64,000 nucleotides of DNA from Longimicrobiales bacterium (GTDB lineage Bacteria; Gemmatimonadota; Gemmatimonadetes; Longimicrobiales; Gaopeijiaceae). Positions within the stretch are counted from its first letter, which is position 1. Every line of letters starts with the position of its first letter. Shown here one piece after another: positions 37,295 through 42,426 of the stretch. The stretch is from the NCBI GenBank assembly GCA_029245345.1, contig JAQWPM010000012.1:682001-746000 (forward strand), read 5' to 3'. Below the pieces are notes generated by a model. The model saw only the letters and a program-made list of their open reading frames with translations. It searched no databases and was not told where the DNA came from. The position numbers and the translations under genes were made by a program.

Positions 37295-38422
37295 ATGACA
37301 ACAGCCTTTTTTGTGCGATTCGCGAGCATATCTGCGCTCGTTTCCCTCGCATTGTCACTCGTCGCGGCGCCCCTCACAGGCCAGCGGCCGGAGGACCTCG
37401 AAGCGGCATCGGGTGAAGCGCTCTACCAGGCCTCATGCGCCAATTGCCACGGCGTCGACGGCCGCGGGGTGGAGCCGTCCTTGCTCGCATTCGCCGAAGA
37501 GATGCCTGACTTCACCGACTGCGACTTCGCGGCGCGCGAACCTGACGGCGATTGGGTGGCAGTCGCGCATGAGGGCGGCCCTATTCGCGGCTTCAGCGAG
37601 ATGATGCCCGCGTTCCGGGGAGCACTCACTGTGGCACAACTCGACCGCGTGATGGGCTACATCCGCACGTTGTGTACCGACCCCAACTGGCCGGCCGGGG
37701 AACTCAACCTGCCCAGGGCGTTGCTCGCCGAGAAGGCGTATCCAGAGGACGAATGGGTCATAGAGGCTGGCGTCGCGCTGGAAGGTGAAGGCTCCATAGA
37801 AGGTGCCTACGTCTACGAACAACGCTTCGGGTCCCGCTCGCAGTGGGAGGTCGTGATTCCTTACGGCTGGAAGGAAGGGGCCGGTAGCGACTGGGTGAGC
37901 GCCCCCGGCGACCTCGTTCTAGGCGTGAAACACGCAGCATACCACGACAAATCTGTCGGGAGGATCCTCTCGCTCGGCGGTGAAGTCATCCTGCCCACCG
38001 GTGACGAAACAAAGGGTCTTGGAGCCGACGGTGTAACGGCCGAAGTCTTCTCCTCCTTCGGCCAGACCCTCACAGGAGACGCATTCATCCAAGCTCAGGT
38101 GGGCTTCGAGGTTCCGCTCTACAGCGGTGGTGACAACGAGACCTTCGGCCGCTTCGTCTTCGGTCGCACCTTCACATCGGGTCCATGGGGACGAAGCTTC
38201 ACCCCAATGCTCGAGCTCGCGGCAAAGCGTGACCTAGAGTCCGGAGCGGTCACGAAGCTCGATGTGGTCCCACAGTTCCAGTTCTCCCTCAACCAACGAC
38301 AACATGTGTTGGGAAGCCTGGGTTTATTGATACCCGCCACGAATACCGACGGACGTGGTGTTCGACTCCTCGCCTATGTGCTGCTCGACTGGTTTGACGG
38401 CGGCTTCTTCGAGGGATGGTGA
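37295..38422 (+). CDS. Cytochrome c domain fused to outer-membrane beta-barrel
   Basis: This 375-residue protein has a signal peptide (about 1-29), then a monoheme cytochrome c domain with CANCH (48-52) and a likely distal Met in SEMMPAFRG (103 or 104). Residues 135-375 contain alternating amphipathic beta-strands (QWEVVIPYG, LSLGGEVILPTGDE, AFIQAQVGFEVPLYS, GRFVFGRTFTSG, VVPQFQFSLN) and end in a Trp, as in outer-membrane barrels. The fusion places a heme next to a pore. It resembles the Cyc2 cytochrome-porin layout, but the cytochrome domain is longer and no Cyc2 homology is claimed. It is followed four bases later by a pentaheme cytochrome. Confidence 0.78.
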   Translation: MTTAFFVRFASISALVSLALSLVAAPLTGQRPEDLEAASGEALYQASCANCHGVDGRGVEPSLLAFAEEMPDFTDCDFAAREPDGDWVAVAHEGGPIRGFSEMMPAFRGALTVAQLDRVMGYIRTLCTDPNWPAGELNLPRALLAEKAYPEDEWVIEAGVALEGEGSIEGAYVYEQRFGSRSQWEVVIPYGWKEGAGSDWVSAPGDLVLGVKHAAYHDKSVGRILSLGGEVILPTGDETKGLGADGVTAEVFSSFGQTLTGDAFIQAQVGFEVPLYSGGDNETFGRFVFGRTFTSGPWGRSFTPMLELAAKRDLESGAVTKLDVVPQFQFSLNQRQHVLGSLGLLIPATNTDGRGVRLLAYVLLDWFDGGFFEGW

Positions 38423-38426
38423 GACG

Positions 38427-40094
38427 ATGAACCAATGGACCTTCGTCACCGTGATCGTTCTCGGATCAGCTCTAATCGTGAGTGGCACTCCGGAAGGGCC
38501 GCCCGCCGCACCATCACCGATCATACCCGTACAGACCGTCACGGCCCCAGCGGCTACGGACGATCTCTTCAAGACAGCCGATCGCTGTATCGCATGCCAT
38601 AAAGGAATCACTGCTTCAGACGGCACAGACGTCTCAATCGGATACGACTGGCGTGCGTCTATGATGGCCAACAGTGCACGCGACCCCTACTGGCACGCCG
38701 CGGTCCGCCGCGAGATCACTGACTTCCCCGAATCATCCGTGTCCATCGAGACGAACTGCAGTCGTTGTCACATGCCCATGGCGAATGTCGTGGCAGCTTC
38801 CCAGGGGCGCGAAACCTCGGTTTTCGGAAACCTCCCTATCCAAGCCGGAGCAGAGGGAGAAGCCGCGCTCGCTGCAGACGGCGTGTCCTGTGCGGCGTGT
38901 CATCAAATCGCTCCAGACGGACTCGGGTCGGAAGCGAGCTTCACCGGACAGTTCACAGTGAACACTGACGCCGCACCCGACGGCCGCACCGTCTACGGTC
39001 CCTTCGAGCCCGATGAGGGCGGAGCTGGCATCATGCATTCCGCGACTGGCTTCCGTCCCACAGAAGGCGCGCACATGCAGTCGGCAGAGTTGTGCTCGTC
39101 GTGCCATACCCTCATGACGCACTCCATCCGGAACGATGGTTCAGACGGAGTCGAGTTCCCAGAACAGGCCCCGTACCTTGAGTGGCAGGCCTCTTCGTTC
39201 GGCCGGAAGAACGTGACGTGCCAAGACTGCCACATGCCCGAAGTCGGTGAAGATGTGCCTGTCACCGCCGTTCTCGGTCGCGAGCGTCCAAACGTCTCAA
39301 GGCACGTCTTCCGCGGCGGCAACTTCTTCATGCTGCGGATGCTCAACCGATACCGTGACGAATTGGGCGTGACCGCCCTACCCCAAGAGATGGCGCTGGC
39401 AGCCGCCCGCACCGAGGATCACCTCCGCGAAGCCACCGCCACTGTGGAGGTCATGGACGTCAGCCTTACGGACGGCGTGTTGTCCGCCACTGTTGAAATC
39501 CGGAACATGGCCGGCCACAAATTCCCCACCGCGTACCCGTCACGACGAGCCTGGCTGCACGTGACCGTCACGGACCGCGGCGGCGACACCGTCTTCGAAT
39601 CCGGAGCCTTCTCCCCGGACGGTCGGGTCATCGGTGACGACCACGACGCGAACGGCACGACGTATGAGCCCCACTACGCCGAGATCACCAGCCCTGATCA
39701 GGTTCAGATCTATCAGTCCGTCATGGTAGACCAAGCAGGAGAGGTGACTACTGGGCTCATGTCCGCCGAGCGATGGGCCAAGGACAACCGACTTCTCCCC
39801 GACGGCTTCGACGCATCCGCCGCGGACCCGCGCGTGCGCCCTGTGGGTGAGGCAGCCACGGACTTAGATTTCGTCGCCGGACTGGACCGAGTGCAGTACT
39901 CGGTTCCAACGGGCGACGCGGCCGGGCCACTCACCGTGACCGCGGAGCTCTGGTTCCAGCCAATAGGATACCGGTGGGCTCAAAACCTCGGCGAATACGA
40001 CACCTTCGAAACACAGCGCTTTTTCCGGTACTACCGGGACATGGCAGAACGTTCGGCCATCGTGATCGCTGAAGCTTCCGAGGAGATCCGTTGA
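38427..40094 (+). CDS. Pentaheme cytochrome c
   Basis: This 555-residue exported protein has five CXXCH motifs: CIACH (54), CSRCH (111), CAACH (155), CSSCH (223) and CQDCH (265). The N-terminal hydrophobic stretch serves as signal or anchor. Residues 330-550 form a beta-rich domain (NMAGHKFPTAYPSRRAWLHV) of the sort that follows heme domains in c554-like cytochromes. It is likely a periplasmic electron carrier. It is co-operonic with the cytochrome-barrel gene and overlaps the next gene as TTGA. Confidence 0.9.
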   Translation: MNQWTFVTVIVLGSALIVSGTPEGPPAAPSPIIPVQTVTAPAATDDLFKTADRCIACHKGITASDGTDVSIGYDWRASMMANSARDPYWHAAVRREITDFPESSVSIETNCSRCHMPMANVVAASQGRETSVFGNLPIQAGAEGEAALAADGVSCAACHQIAPDGLGSEASFTGQFTVNTDAAPDGRTVYGPFEPDEGGAGIMHSATGFRPTEGAHMQSAELCSSCHTLMTHSIRNDGSDGVEFPEQAPYLEWQASSFGRKNVTCQDCHMPEVGEDVPVTAVLGRERPNVSRHVFRGGNFFMLRMLNRYRDELGVTALPQEMALAAARTEDHLREATATVEVMDVSLTDGVLSATVEIRNMAGHKFPTAYPSRRAWLHVTVTDRGGDTVFESGAFSPDGRVIGDDHDANGTTYEPHYAEITSPDQVQIYQSVMVDQAGEVTTGLMSAERWAKDNRLLPDGFDASAADPRVRPVGEAATDLDFVAGLDRVQYSVPTGDAAGPLTVTAELWFQPIGYRWAQNLGEYDTFETQRFFRYYRDMAERSAIVIAEASEEIR

Positions 40095-40531
40095 TCGAGA
40101 CTTGGCGCAAACTCGGCCTCGCTCTGCTGATCTTCGGCATGGCCGGCGTCCTGCTCGAGCTCTACCTCCTCGGGCATTTCGAACTCACGCCTCAATGGAC
40201 ACCCTTGGCACTCCTGGGTGTAGGTGTGGTGCTCGGCTTCTGGGTTGCTGCCCGGCCGGGGAAAGGAGCCGTACGTGCCCTGCAAGGGCTCATGGCCATG
40301 TATGTCGGGTCGGGAGCGCTGGGTATGTACTTCCACCTGAAGGCAAATGTAGAGTTCGAATTGGAGCTACACCCGACCGTACGTGGGATGGAGCTCGTCA
40401 TAGAGAGTCTGACCGGCGCGATGCCAGCGCTGGCTCCGGGCACCATGACCCAACTCGGGCTTCTCGGATTGTTGATCACATTCCGGCACCCCGCATTGGG
40501 TGGGGCCGCTGCTGAAACAGAAAATTCCTAA
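40091..40531 (+). CDS. Small four-helix membrane protein, hypothetical
   Basis: This 146-residue protein has four hydrophobic segments (about 10-28, 37-53, 64-80 and 118-135) and a polar loop (about 85-115). The start TTG 40091 overlaps the pentaheme stop. I do not recognise a family. As it is embedded in the cytochrome operon it could be a quinone-side anchor or assembly factor, but this is inference. Confidence 0.6.
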   Translation: MIETWRKLGLALLIFGMAGVLLELYLLGHFELTPQWTPLALLGVGVVLGFWVAARPGKGAVRALQGLMAMYVGSGALGMYFHLKANVEFELELHPTVRGMELVIESLTGAMPALAPGTMTQLGLLGLLITFRHPALGGAAAETENS

Positions 40532-40547
40532 GAGCAGGATATCCATA

Positions 40548-41186
40548 ATGAAGAACTTCACCCCTGTATTCATGGGGGTAGTGGCCCTCGCACTCTTGGC
40601 TACAGCTCCGGTCACAGCTCAGGTCGGTGAGAACCTCGGCCTCGTGAACCCGAACCTCGCCACTGCAGAAGAGATCGGGGCGGTCGACGGGCTCAACAGC
40701 GGTGCCGTCCAAGCCATCATGCAGGGTCGTCCTTTCCTCAAGATGTCCGAGCTGCATCAGGCGCTTTCCGCTCATGTCACCGATGCCGCCTTCGCTCAAG
40801 TCTACGCAGGGCTGTGGCTCCCCATAGACCTGAACGACGTAACGGATGAGGAGATCCTCCTCATTCCCGGCGTCGGCGCCCGCATGCTCCATGAGTTCCG
40901 TGAATACGCACCATTCGAGGCGCTTTCGGTCTTCCACCGTGAAATCGATAAGTACGTCGATGACGATGAGCTCGCCCGCTTGGAGCAGTACGTGTACGTG
41001 CGTATCGACCTGAACACGGCATCCGACGAAGCAATCCTGAGCCTTCCGGGCATCGGTGCTCGTATGCTTCGAGAGTTCAAGGAGTACCGCCCGTTCGAAG
41101 CCATGGCTCAGTTCCGGCGCGAGATGGGCAAATACGTCGATGAAGACGAGGTGGCCCGCATGGAACGCTACGTCGAGATCCGCTGA
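40548..41186 (+). CDS. Exported protein of three 60-residue helix-hairpin-helix repeats
   Basis: This 212-residue protein has a signal peptide (1-25) and three tandem units of exactly 60 residues starting near residues 33, 93 and 153. Units two and three are almost identical in pattern: IDLNDVTDEEILLIPGVGAR versus IDLNTASDEAILSLPGIGAR, each ending in FREYAPFEAL or FKEYRPFEAM and a coil. The GIGAR element is the ComEA-like HhH DNA-binding hairpin. The first unit is degenerate. It could bind DNA outside the cytoplasm or serve as a protein module beside the cytochromes. The start at ATG 40548 gives a clean signal sequence. Confidence 0.75.
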   Translation: MKNFTPVFMGVVALALLATAPVTAQVGENLGLVNPNLATAEEIGAVDGLNSGAVQAIMQGRPFLKMSELHQALSAHVTDAAFAQVYAGLWLPIDLNDVTDEEILLIPGVGARMLHEFREYAPFEALSVFHREIDKYVDDDELARLEQYVYVRIDLNTASDEAILSLPGIGARMLREFKEYRPFEAMAQFRREMGKYVDEDEVARMERYVEIR

Positions 41187-41247
41187 TCCCTGGCGGCAGC
41201 AGAAAGAACGCCCTATGGGTTCCCGTAGGCAGTAGCTCATTCAATTA

Positions 41248-42426
41248 ATGAGGTTGCAGAAGATGGCTTTGAAGACTCGGCTGACGGTGGCCCTAGCGGT
41301 GCTGATGCTCGCGGGTGCGATGCCTGCGGACGCCCAAGTGCAACGCTCGGCGAGGCACGATTTCCAAGTCGTGACCGTCGCAGAAGGATTCGTCAATCCG
41401 TGGGCCATAGCATGGCTCCCGAACGGGGACATGCTCGTCACGGAACGCGCCGGGCGTCTCCGCATCGTGCGCGGAGGTGAGTTGCTTGCCGCTCCGGTAT
41501 CGGGCGTGCCCGAGGTTGTCGCACAGGGCCAAGGCGGCCTGCTGGATGTCATCGTGCACCCTGACTTCGAGAGCAACAGCTTCATCTACCTGAGCTACTC
41601 GAGAGAGAAGGACTCCGGAGAGGGTGCCAGCACCGGAGTCGTGCGTGGTCGTCTCCAGGACAGTGCGCTCATGGACGTCGAGCAGATCTGGGTCGCGGAA
41701 TCCACCGGTCGGAACGGTCACTTCGGCTCTCGAATGGCCTGGGATGCGGACGGATACCTGTATATCACCGCCGGAGATCGCCAGATCTCACCCTCTGGGG
41801 ACCTTGAAGCACACCCTGCACAGGACTACTCGAACCATCACGGCGTGATCGTGCGCTTGCACGACGATGGTCGAATCCCGGCGGACAACCCGTTCATCGG
41901 AACCGACGGGGCGCTCAGCGACATCTACAGCTACGGACACCGGAACCCACAGGGCCTCATCATTGATCAGTCGACTGGCAACATCTGGGCGACTGAACAC
42001 GGACCTCAGGGTGGTGACGAGCTGAACCTGATCAAGCCCGGCGCCAACTATGGCTGGCCGGTCGTCGGGTTCGGCGTGAACTACGGCAGCGGCTCCGCAA
42101 TTCACTCTGCGACACAGGGAGAAGGCATGGAGAATCCGTCGCACATCTGGGTTCCGTCTATCGCCCTGTCAGGCCTCATGATGTACCGAGGCGACAAATT
42201 CCCAGCCTGGAACGGCAACATCTTCGCCGGGGGCATGGCTGGTCAGCAGCTCGCTCGCCTCACGGTGGATGGCGAGATGGTGATGAAGGAAGAGACGCTG
42301 TTGCAGCGACTCGGCCGCATCCGCGATGTGCGCGAGGGACCCGACGGGTACATCTACGTGGCAATCGAAGATCGTCGCGGAGCCCCAACGCCAATCGTGC
42401 GCCTGGAGCCAGCGGGGGGGCGCTAG
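41248..42426 (+). CDS. PQQ-dependent soluble aldose dehydrogenase-like protein
   Basis: This 392-residue protein has a signal peptide (starting either at 41248 or at ATG 41263) and the six-bladed soluble-glucose-dehydrogenase fold signatures PWAIAWLPNGDMLVTERAGR, GLLDVIVHPDF, EHGPQGGDELNLIKPGANYG and a final GPDGYIYVA. It would oxidise sugars with PQQ in the periplasm, passing electrons to cytochromes. No PQQ synthesis genes are in the window. Placement after the cytochrome block makes it a plausible electron source. Confidence 0.88.
   Translation: MRLQKMALKTRLTVALAVLMLAGAMPADAQVQRSARHDFQVVTVAEGFVNPWAIAWLPNGDMLVTERAGRLRIVRGGELLAAPVSGVPEVVAQGQGGLLDVIVHPDFESNSFIYLSYSREKDSGEGASTGVVRGRLQDSALMDVEQIWVAESTGRNGHFGSRMAWDADGYLYITAGDRQISPSGDLEAHPAQDYSNHHGVIVRLHDDGRIPADNPFIGTDGALSDIYSYGHRNPQGLIIDQSTGNIWATEHGPQGGDELNLIKPGANYGWPVVGFGVNYGSGSAIHSATQGEGMENPSHIWVPSIALSGLMMYRGDKFPAWNGNIFAGGMAGQQLARLTVDGEMVMKEETLLQRLGRIRDVREGPDGYIYVAIEDRRGAPTPIVRLEPAGGR

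Follow-up and report, generated by a model that had tools for sequence, protein, structure and literature searches.

A cytochrome c fused to a predicted outer-membrane barrel and its pentaheme cytochrome partner: a conserved gene pair in Gemmatimonadota and other phyla

A locus in a Gemmatimonadota-type genome (Longimicrobiales bacterium, assembly GCA_029245345.1; 3.79 Mb, 30 contigs) raises the question of which of five neighbouring genes belong together, and what a cytochrome c joined to an outer-membrane barrel in one protein chain may serve for. The stretch analysed, hereafter the window, comprises 64,000 nucleotides of contig JAQWPM010000012.1. The five open reading frames of the original prediction, here called genes A to E, were all present; they lie on one strand with small intergenic gaps. 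Gene A encodes the cytochrome-barrel fusion and gene B, whose start codon (ATG at 38427) follows the stop codon of A by 4 nucleotides, a pentaheme cytochrome. Together the two look like an undescribed cell-surface redox module.

37295..38422, + strand: gene A, signal peptide, class I cytochrome c and 12-stranded outer-membrane barrel, 375 amino acids (sequence, Pfam, alignment, AlphaFold2, Foldseek)
38427..40094, + strand: gene B, exported pentaheme cytochrome c with a C-terminal Ig-like domain, 555 amino acids, PHC family (Pfam, NCBI model, AlphaFold2, Foldseek, profile)

Related loci were compared from two collections in which some genomes are present twice; in 70 of the 77 informative ones B is the next gene downstream of A and shares its strand, the gap ranging from -71 to 179 nucleotides. 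The coupling of A to a pentaheme protein proposed in the original prediction was thereby upheld. Of 395 Gemmatimonadota genomes, 67 contained A and 45 contained B (E below 1e-150), and in all of these 45 an A gene adjoins B. Pairwise distances of A and B correlated with r=0.92 over 49 non-redundant loci in a mirror-tree comparison, the permutation maximum being 0.32. These comparisons strongly support the view that A and B are inherited and co-evolve as a pair, and that A-B alone forms a unit. The hosts include Gemmatimonadota, Acidobacteriota, Aminicenantes, Balneolota/Rhodothermota and Planctomycetota, with one record labelled Deltaproteobacteria; most of them are metagenome bins, the taxon labels of which may be wrong. 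The pair is also carried by a named strain, Rhodohalobacter sulfatireducens WB101 (locus L063), which makes a direct test possible.

The pair can also be missing as a whole. A genome of the same genus (G001) keeps genes C, D and E but has no A-B; where the window has about 2,940 bp, G001 has 174 bp, next to a degraded transporter gene. Since close relatives carry A-B-C-D in that order, it is simpler to assume that G001 lost A-B as a block. The transporter adjoining the missing pair, of the SSF type, is a remnant of about 235 bp (L134:6182-6431).

The 375-residue chain of A has the signal peptide, the CXXCH cytochrome c domain and the terminal Trp that had been read from it, and its parts are as follows.

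37391..37684, + strand: cytochrome c domain of A, residues 33-130 (Pfam PF00034, 39.7 bits)
37436..37450, + strand: heme c attachment motif CXXCH of A (sequence; invariant in alignment A1)
37685..37750, + strand: linker of A, residues 131-152, NWPAGELNLPRALLAEKAYPED, extended, with a predicted local distance difference test score (pLDDT) of about 97 (AlphaFold2, conservation)
37751..38392, + strand: barrel of A, 12 strands, residues 153-366, with a conserved charged polar face (AlphaFold2, conservation, PF13557)
38387..38419, + strand: C-terminal signature DWFDGGFFEGW of A, residues 365-375 (alignment, conservation)

The N-terminal domain shows a PF00034 match (spanning residues 37-126), a CXXCH motif and a downstream Met, which together place it among class I cytochromes c. 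When a profile of A homologs was compared with solved structures, the nearest were class I domains of the CcoP, c552 and c6 types. The single CXXCH reads CANCH (residues 48-52), and exactly one such motif occurs in all 77 A proteins with an assigned start. Met104, invariant in 67/67 homologs, is the likely sixth (axial) heme ligand. Cysteines C76 and C127 probably form a disulfide, as both vanish together in the three of 67 homologs that do not have them.

The claim that the C-terminal part of A folds as a barrel was borne out by an AlphaFold2 model built with 49 homologs (mean pLDDT 91.6, predicted template-modelling score 0.84), in which helices extend until residue 126 and 12 main strands follow at residues 153-364. 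The top Foldseek matches included FapF, the COG4313 channel 4RL8, NanC and KdgM, all 12-stranded outer-membrane barrels. Because PF13557 (Phenol_MetA_deg) matches 31 of the 49 A homologs at E<=0.01, the best at 4e-8, the barrel is placed by sequence in or near the COG4313/Phenol_MetA_deg family; in the single-sequence Pfam search the A protein of the window itself was sub-threshold (14.5 of 22 bits). There is thus strong support for A as an exported protein that joins a c-type cytochrome of class I to a 12-stranded barrel of the COG4313 family.

Conservation is unevenly spread over A. In the strands the polar face scores 0.70 and the lipid face 0.54, compared with 0.68 for the cytochrome domain. 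The conserved charged polar-face residues are E153, E175, R177, E185, K212, E230, E282, R286, E307, D323, Q327 and Q329. The C-terminal tail is near-invariant across phyla (0.94) and its terminal Trp invariant in the 49-row alignment; apart from this tail, the linker is the most conserved stretch of the protein (0.82). By analogy with the N-terminus of COG4313 channels the linker may enter the barrel lumen. The loops are mostly short. Extracellular loop 2 carries long His/Asp-rich insertions, possibly metal binding, in homologs L035, L038, L042, L047, L048 and L052; as a general metal-binding feature of A this was rejected, the insertions being confined to some Gemmatimonadota homologs.

Protein B consists of two recognisable parts.

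38586..39233, + strand: five-heme domain of B, CXXCH at residues 54-58, 111-115, 155-159, 223-227 and 265-269 (alignment A2)
39438..40091, + strand: Ig-like domain of B, motif GHK-x-P-x-x-YPSRR at residues 363-374 (alignment A2, AlphaFold2, profile)

All five CXXCH motifs are invariant in alignment A2, and five were counted in 68 of the 69 B proteins with an assigned start. In the Ig-like domain H364, K365, Y370 and H416 are invariant. Fixed as they are in the homologs, these features of A and B are not due to chance. The model of B matched cytochrome c552 of Thermochromatium tepidum (PDB 5ZE8) with a Foldseek E of 2.5e-16 and a template-modelling score of 0.72 (target-length normalised), and a profile of B homologs matched the same structure at 1.1e-5. 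The profile also matched the multiheme selenoprotein MccSep, weakly and via the Ig-like domain motif; residue 325 of MccSep, an unknown-residue position in an entry whose mutant is named U325A, aligns with the invariant Tyr370 of B. A study of cable bacteria unites ExtKL, Gsu2801 and similar proteins in the PHC family, homologous to c552, and lists the PHC members of cable bacteria as potentially catalytic on account of a possible open heme site (PMC11976967). The features of this family, five CXXCH motifs followed by an Ig-like domain and a c552 fold, were all found in B. The ExtKL model matched 27 of 32 B homologs at E<=0.01, and B itself scored 39.5 of 250 bits against the ExtKL equivalog NF040886, far under the curated cut-off. 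By these comparisons B is classed as a member of the PHC family and not as an ExtKL equivalog. A lipoprotein signal was not supported, as a lipobox-like string occurs in merely 3 of 69 B proteins. A B-like pentaheme core was also seen within proteins of 870-930 amino acids with an extra N-terminal part (L127, L128 and L129 in genomes G052, G046 and G056; family f3); these genomes have no A gene. In L127, which alone was tested, the N-terminal part gave a weak cytochrome P460 match (22.1 bits, cut-off 27).

Loci in which A is present without B fall into two groups. One, in family f4, consists of shorter and only distantly related A proteins beside which no partner could be recognised. The other is a clade, that of Palauibacter, in which the gene overlapping or close after A encodes an exported protein with a cupredoxin-like copper motif, CDIHGWM, and a carboxypeptidase-regulatory-like domain; its Pfam cupredoxin match is weak (E 0.067). 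The cupredoxin-type loci and L082 form one supported clade nested among B-type loci (97 in the Shimodaira-Hasegawa-like approximate likelihood ratio test; root not inferred), and because of this nesting it is probable that B was replaced there by the cupredoxin-like gene. The apparent substitution of a copper protein, likely a single-electron carrier, for a multiheme partner speaks for electron exchange as the putative function of the A heme.

Some further neighbours of these genes were observed. The gene after A in one lineage resembles a GMC-type dehydrogenase and is incomplete at the contig end (L082:4214-5270); this neighbourhood (L082, L015), restricted to one lineage and short contigs, was not used as partner evidence. 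The cupredoxin-like family is present in 109 of the 395 Gemmatimonadota genomes. At L028:265-1914 on the minus strand lies a gene for a cytochrome c protein that has an ethylbenzene-dehydrogenase (EB_dh) domain; the gene downstream of it belongs to this family, and similar pairs, judged by position, occur in G020, G024, G037 and others.

The original prediction had likened the fusion to Cyc2 and to porin-cytochrome conduits while holding it distinct from both, and this view stood. Cyc2 resembles A in that a single chain carries a signal peptide, then one CXXCH heme domain at the N-terminus, and an outer-membrane barrel at the C-terminus. However, its porin is 16-stranded (PMC8406198) and poorly conserved, whereas the barrel of A has 12 strands in the AlphaFold2 model and is well conserved, and its cytochrome domain is short where A has a full class I domain. 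Cyc2 carries AXPXFAR[QK][TY] five residues before CXXCH and PXL four after it; the motif is absent from A, which reads GEALYQASCANCHGVDGRG, and from the alignment consensus. A furthermore has an adjacent pentaheme or cupredoxin-like partner gene, unlike Cyc2. The porin-cytochrome complexes MtrCAB, Pcc and Ext share with A-B the joint encoding of an outer-membrane barrel and a multiheme cytochrome, but their barrel is a large sheath (26 strands in Mtr), for which the barrel of A is far too small and too narrow; in A the heme domain is covalently attached to the barrel, and there is no gene for an extracellular cytochrome. With the COG4313/Phenol_MetA_deg channels (Pput2725, PDB 4RL8) A has in common the 12-stranded barrel and a stretch ahead of strand 1 that, in A, may likewise occlude the lumen, and it differs from them in the fused cytochrome c, a strongly polar and conserved lumen, and an operon with a redox partner. 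B shares five hemes and a C-terminal Ig-like domain with a conserved His-Pro motif with the PHC proteins (T. tepidum c552, Geobacter ExtKL, Gsu2801, MccSep), yet MccSep has selenocysteine at the position of the invariant Tyr370, and ExtKL has the porin ExtI as its partner where B has a cytochrome-barrel fusion. No paper on a fusion of cytochrome c with Phenol_MetA_deg was found in the open-access literature. Cyc2, which is used to mark iron oxidation by microbes, is the main source of what is known about cytochrome-barrel fusions, and a cytochrome-barrel gene by itself should not be taken as Cyc2 or as a sign of iron oxidation. The fusion described here is a second design: it uses another barrel family, has a full class I cytochrome and comes with a fixed pentaheme partner. 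Redox chemistry at the cell surface can thereby be looked for more widely, also in abundant lineages with few cultured members.

How the pair may work can be proposed from these likenesses. Both termini of outer-membrane barrels are periplasmic, and a periplasmic N-terminal cytochrome has been stated for Cyc2 (PMC8406198); therefore the N-terminal cytochrome of A should be on the periplasmic side. The lumen of the COG4313 channel Pput2725, about 10-12 angstrom wide without its plug, is occluded by the stretch that precedes strand 1 (PMC4493636), and the linker of A seems well placed to act in the same way. The barrel would then sit in the outer membrane with the cytochrome below the mouth of the lumen, which the conserved linker would block, and soluble B, or the cupredoxin-like protein in one clade, would exchange electrons with the A heme at this periplasmic mouth. 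The barrel would probably act as an anchor and selectively admit a small substrate, to be turned over at the heme or the heme-protein interface, rather than enclose a heme wire. Judging by its invariant candidate Met ligand, A may have a fairly high potential and could link B to the aerobic cytochrome c chain of the organism. Three COX1-family genes in the genome agree with aerobic respiration at the other end of such a chain. A-B as a redox module of two genes attached to the outer membrane, with an anchored redox couple, a plugged barrel and the heme at the periplasmic mouth, has in our judgement about an even chance of being correct. A more far-reaching form, in which the single-heme cytochrome on its 12-stranded barrel couples a small extracellular donor or acceptor entering the charged lumen to a swappable periplasmic partner (PHC or cupredoxin-like), is put forward only tentatively. 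If true, it would be a new class of outer-membrane electron transfer, common in uncultured Gemmatimonadota and Acidobacteriota.

Several points weigh against an anchored couple. The model of A contains no heme, the placement of the cytochrome relative to the barrel is a proposal, and the outer-membrane location and periplasmic B are deduced from signal peptides and fold. A conserved polar lumen is no proof of a substrate channel, and COG4313 channels are thought to carry hydrophobic molecules, which a charged lumen fits poorly. No conserved third gene that would name the substrate was found beside A-B in related loci by tblastn; only tblastn results were trusted in this search, as the picker of open reading frames retains antisense frames in GC-rich DNA. 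As PHC relatives, ExtKL and the nanowire AvECN of archaea speak for extracellular electron transfer, which leads to the main rival: a trans-outer-membrane conduit, in which electrons from B would cross the A heme and then the barrel to reach an extracellular acceptor, or take this path in reverse from an extracellular donor, as in Cyc2 and porin-cytochrome complexes. Cyc2 is likewise a cytochrome-barrel fusion (PMC8406198), B is in the family of ExtKL, for which a role in extracellular electron transfer has been proposed, and c552, related to B by fold, has been linked to the AvECN nanowire (PMC11976967); the conservation of the A-B pair would also suit a conduit. However, A has 12 strands against 16 in Cyc2 and 26 in MtrB, and an unplugged COG4313 lumen of about 10-12 angstrom is too small for a class I cytochrome domain (PMC4493636). 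Nor was an extracellular cytochrome gene found conserved next to A-B, or an MtrA/DmsE-type decaheme above the curated cut-off in the genome. We consider a conduit rather improbable, and since the cytochrome domain is too big for the 12-stranded lumen, the anchored redox couple is preferred.

It is unlikely that the barrel is a mere anchor, with A tethering a periplasmic cytochrome c, B acting as a soluble enzyme or electron reservoir, and nothing crossing the barrel. The highly conserved linker that probably plugs the lumen, the small barrel, the mostly short loops and partners resembling soluble redox proteins would all fit, but a polar lumen face conserved above the lipid face and level with the cytochrome domain is unexpected for a bare anchor. 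A secretion pore exporting B or another protein comes to mind, as the best single fold match of A is FapF, an amyloid secretion pore. This we regard as very improbable: further 12-stranded barrels match too, PF13557 ties A to the COG4313 channels, the N-terminal part of A is a cytochrome, unlike that of FapF, and a folded five-heme protein cannot cross a FapF-like pore. Scarcely credible, finally, is the original idea that the five genes form a route from sugar oxidation by a pyrroloquinoline quinone (PQQ) dehydrogenase via periplasmic hemes to the outer membrane. The common strand and short gaps in the window speak for it, but in none of the related loci with flanks did gene E lie near A, and a genome of the same genus retains C-D-E in the absence of A-B. 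A search of the window's own genome gave no PqqD, which is weak evidence that PQQ may not be made. The five-gene neighbourhood expected in related genomes was not seen, and a five-gene operon was ruled out by the same synteny.

The three genes downstream of the pair are as follows.

40091..40531, + strand: gene C, small membrane protein, accessory, outside the conserved unit (open reading frames, synteny)
40548..41186, + strand: gene D, exported helix-hairpin-helix repeat protein, accompanying C with or without A-B (Pfam, synteny)
41248..42426, + strand: gene E, soluble PQQ enzyme of the aldose-sugar-dehydrogenase type, a mere neighbour outside the unit (Pfam, synteny)

The start codon of C is a TTG overlapping the stop codon of B (TTGA at 40091). 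D matches HHH_3 with 45.3 bits, and E is a GSDH-family dehydrogenase (PF07995, 430 bits) without heme motifs. C-D is a separate two-gene module, found beside A-B in several genomes and without it in others; the module (40091-41186 in the window) is conserved jointly across Gemmatimonadota families. No RNA genes or tRNAs were found in the window. Two more likely multiheme cytochrome genes, of about 810 amino acids, were noticed at G000:C12:454389-454979 and G000:C22:18862-19620, one of which adjoins a second cytochrome c match (C12:453391).

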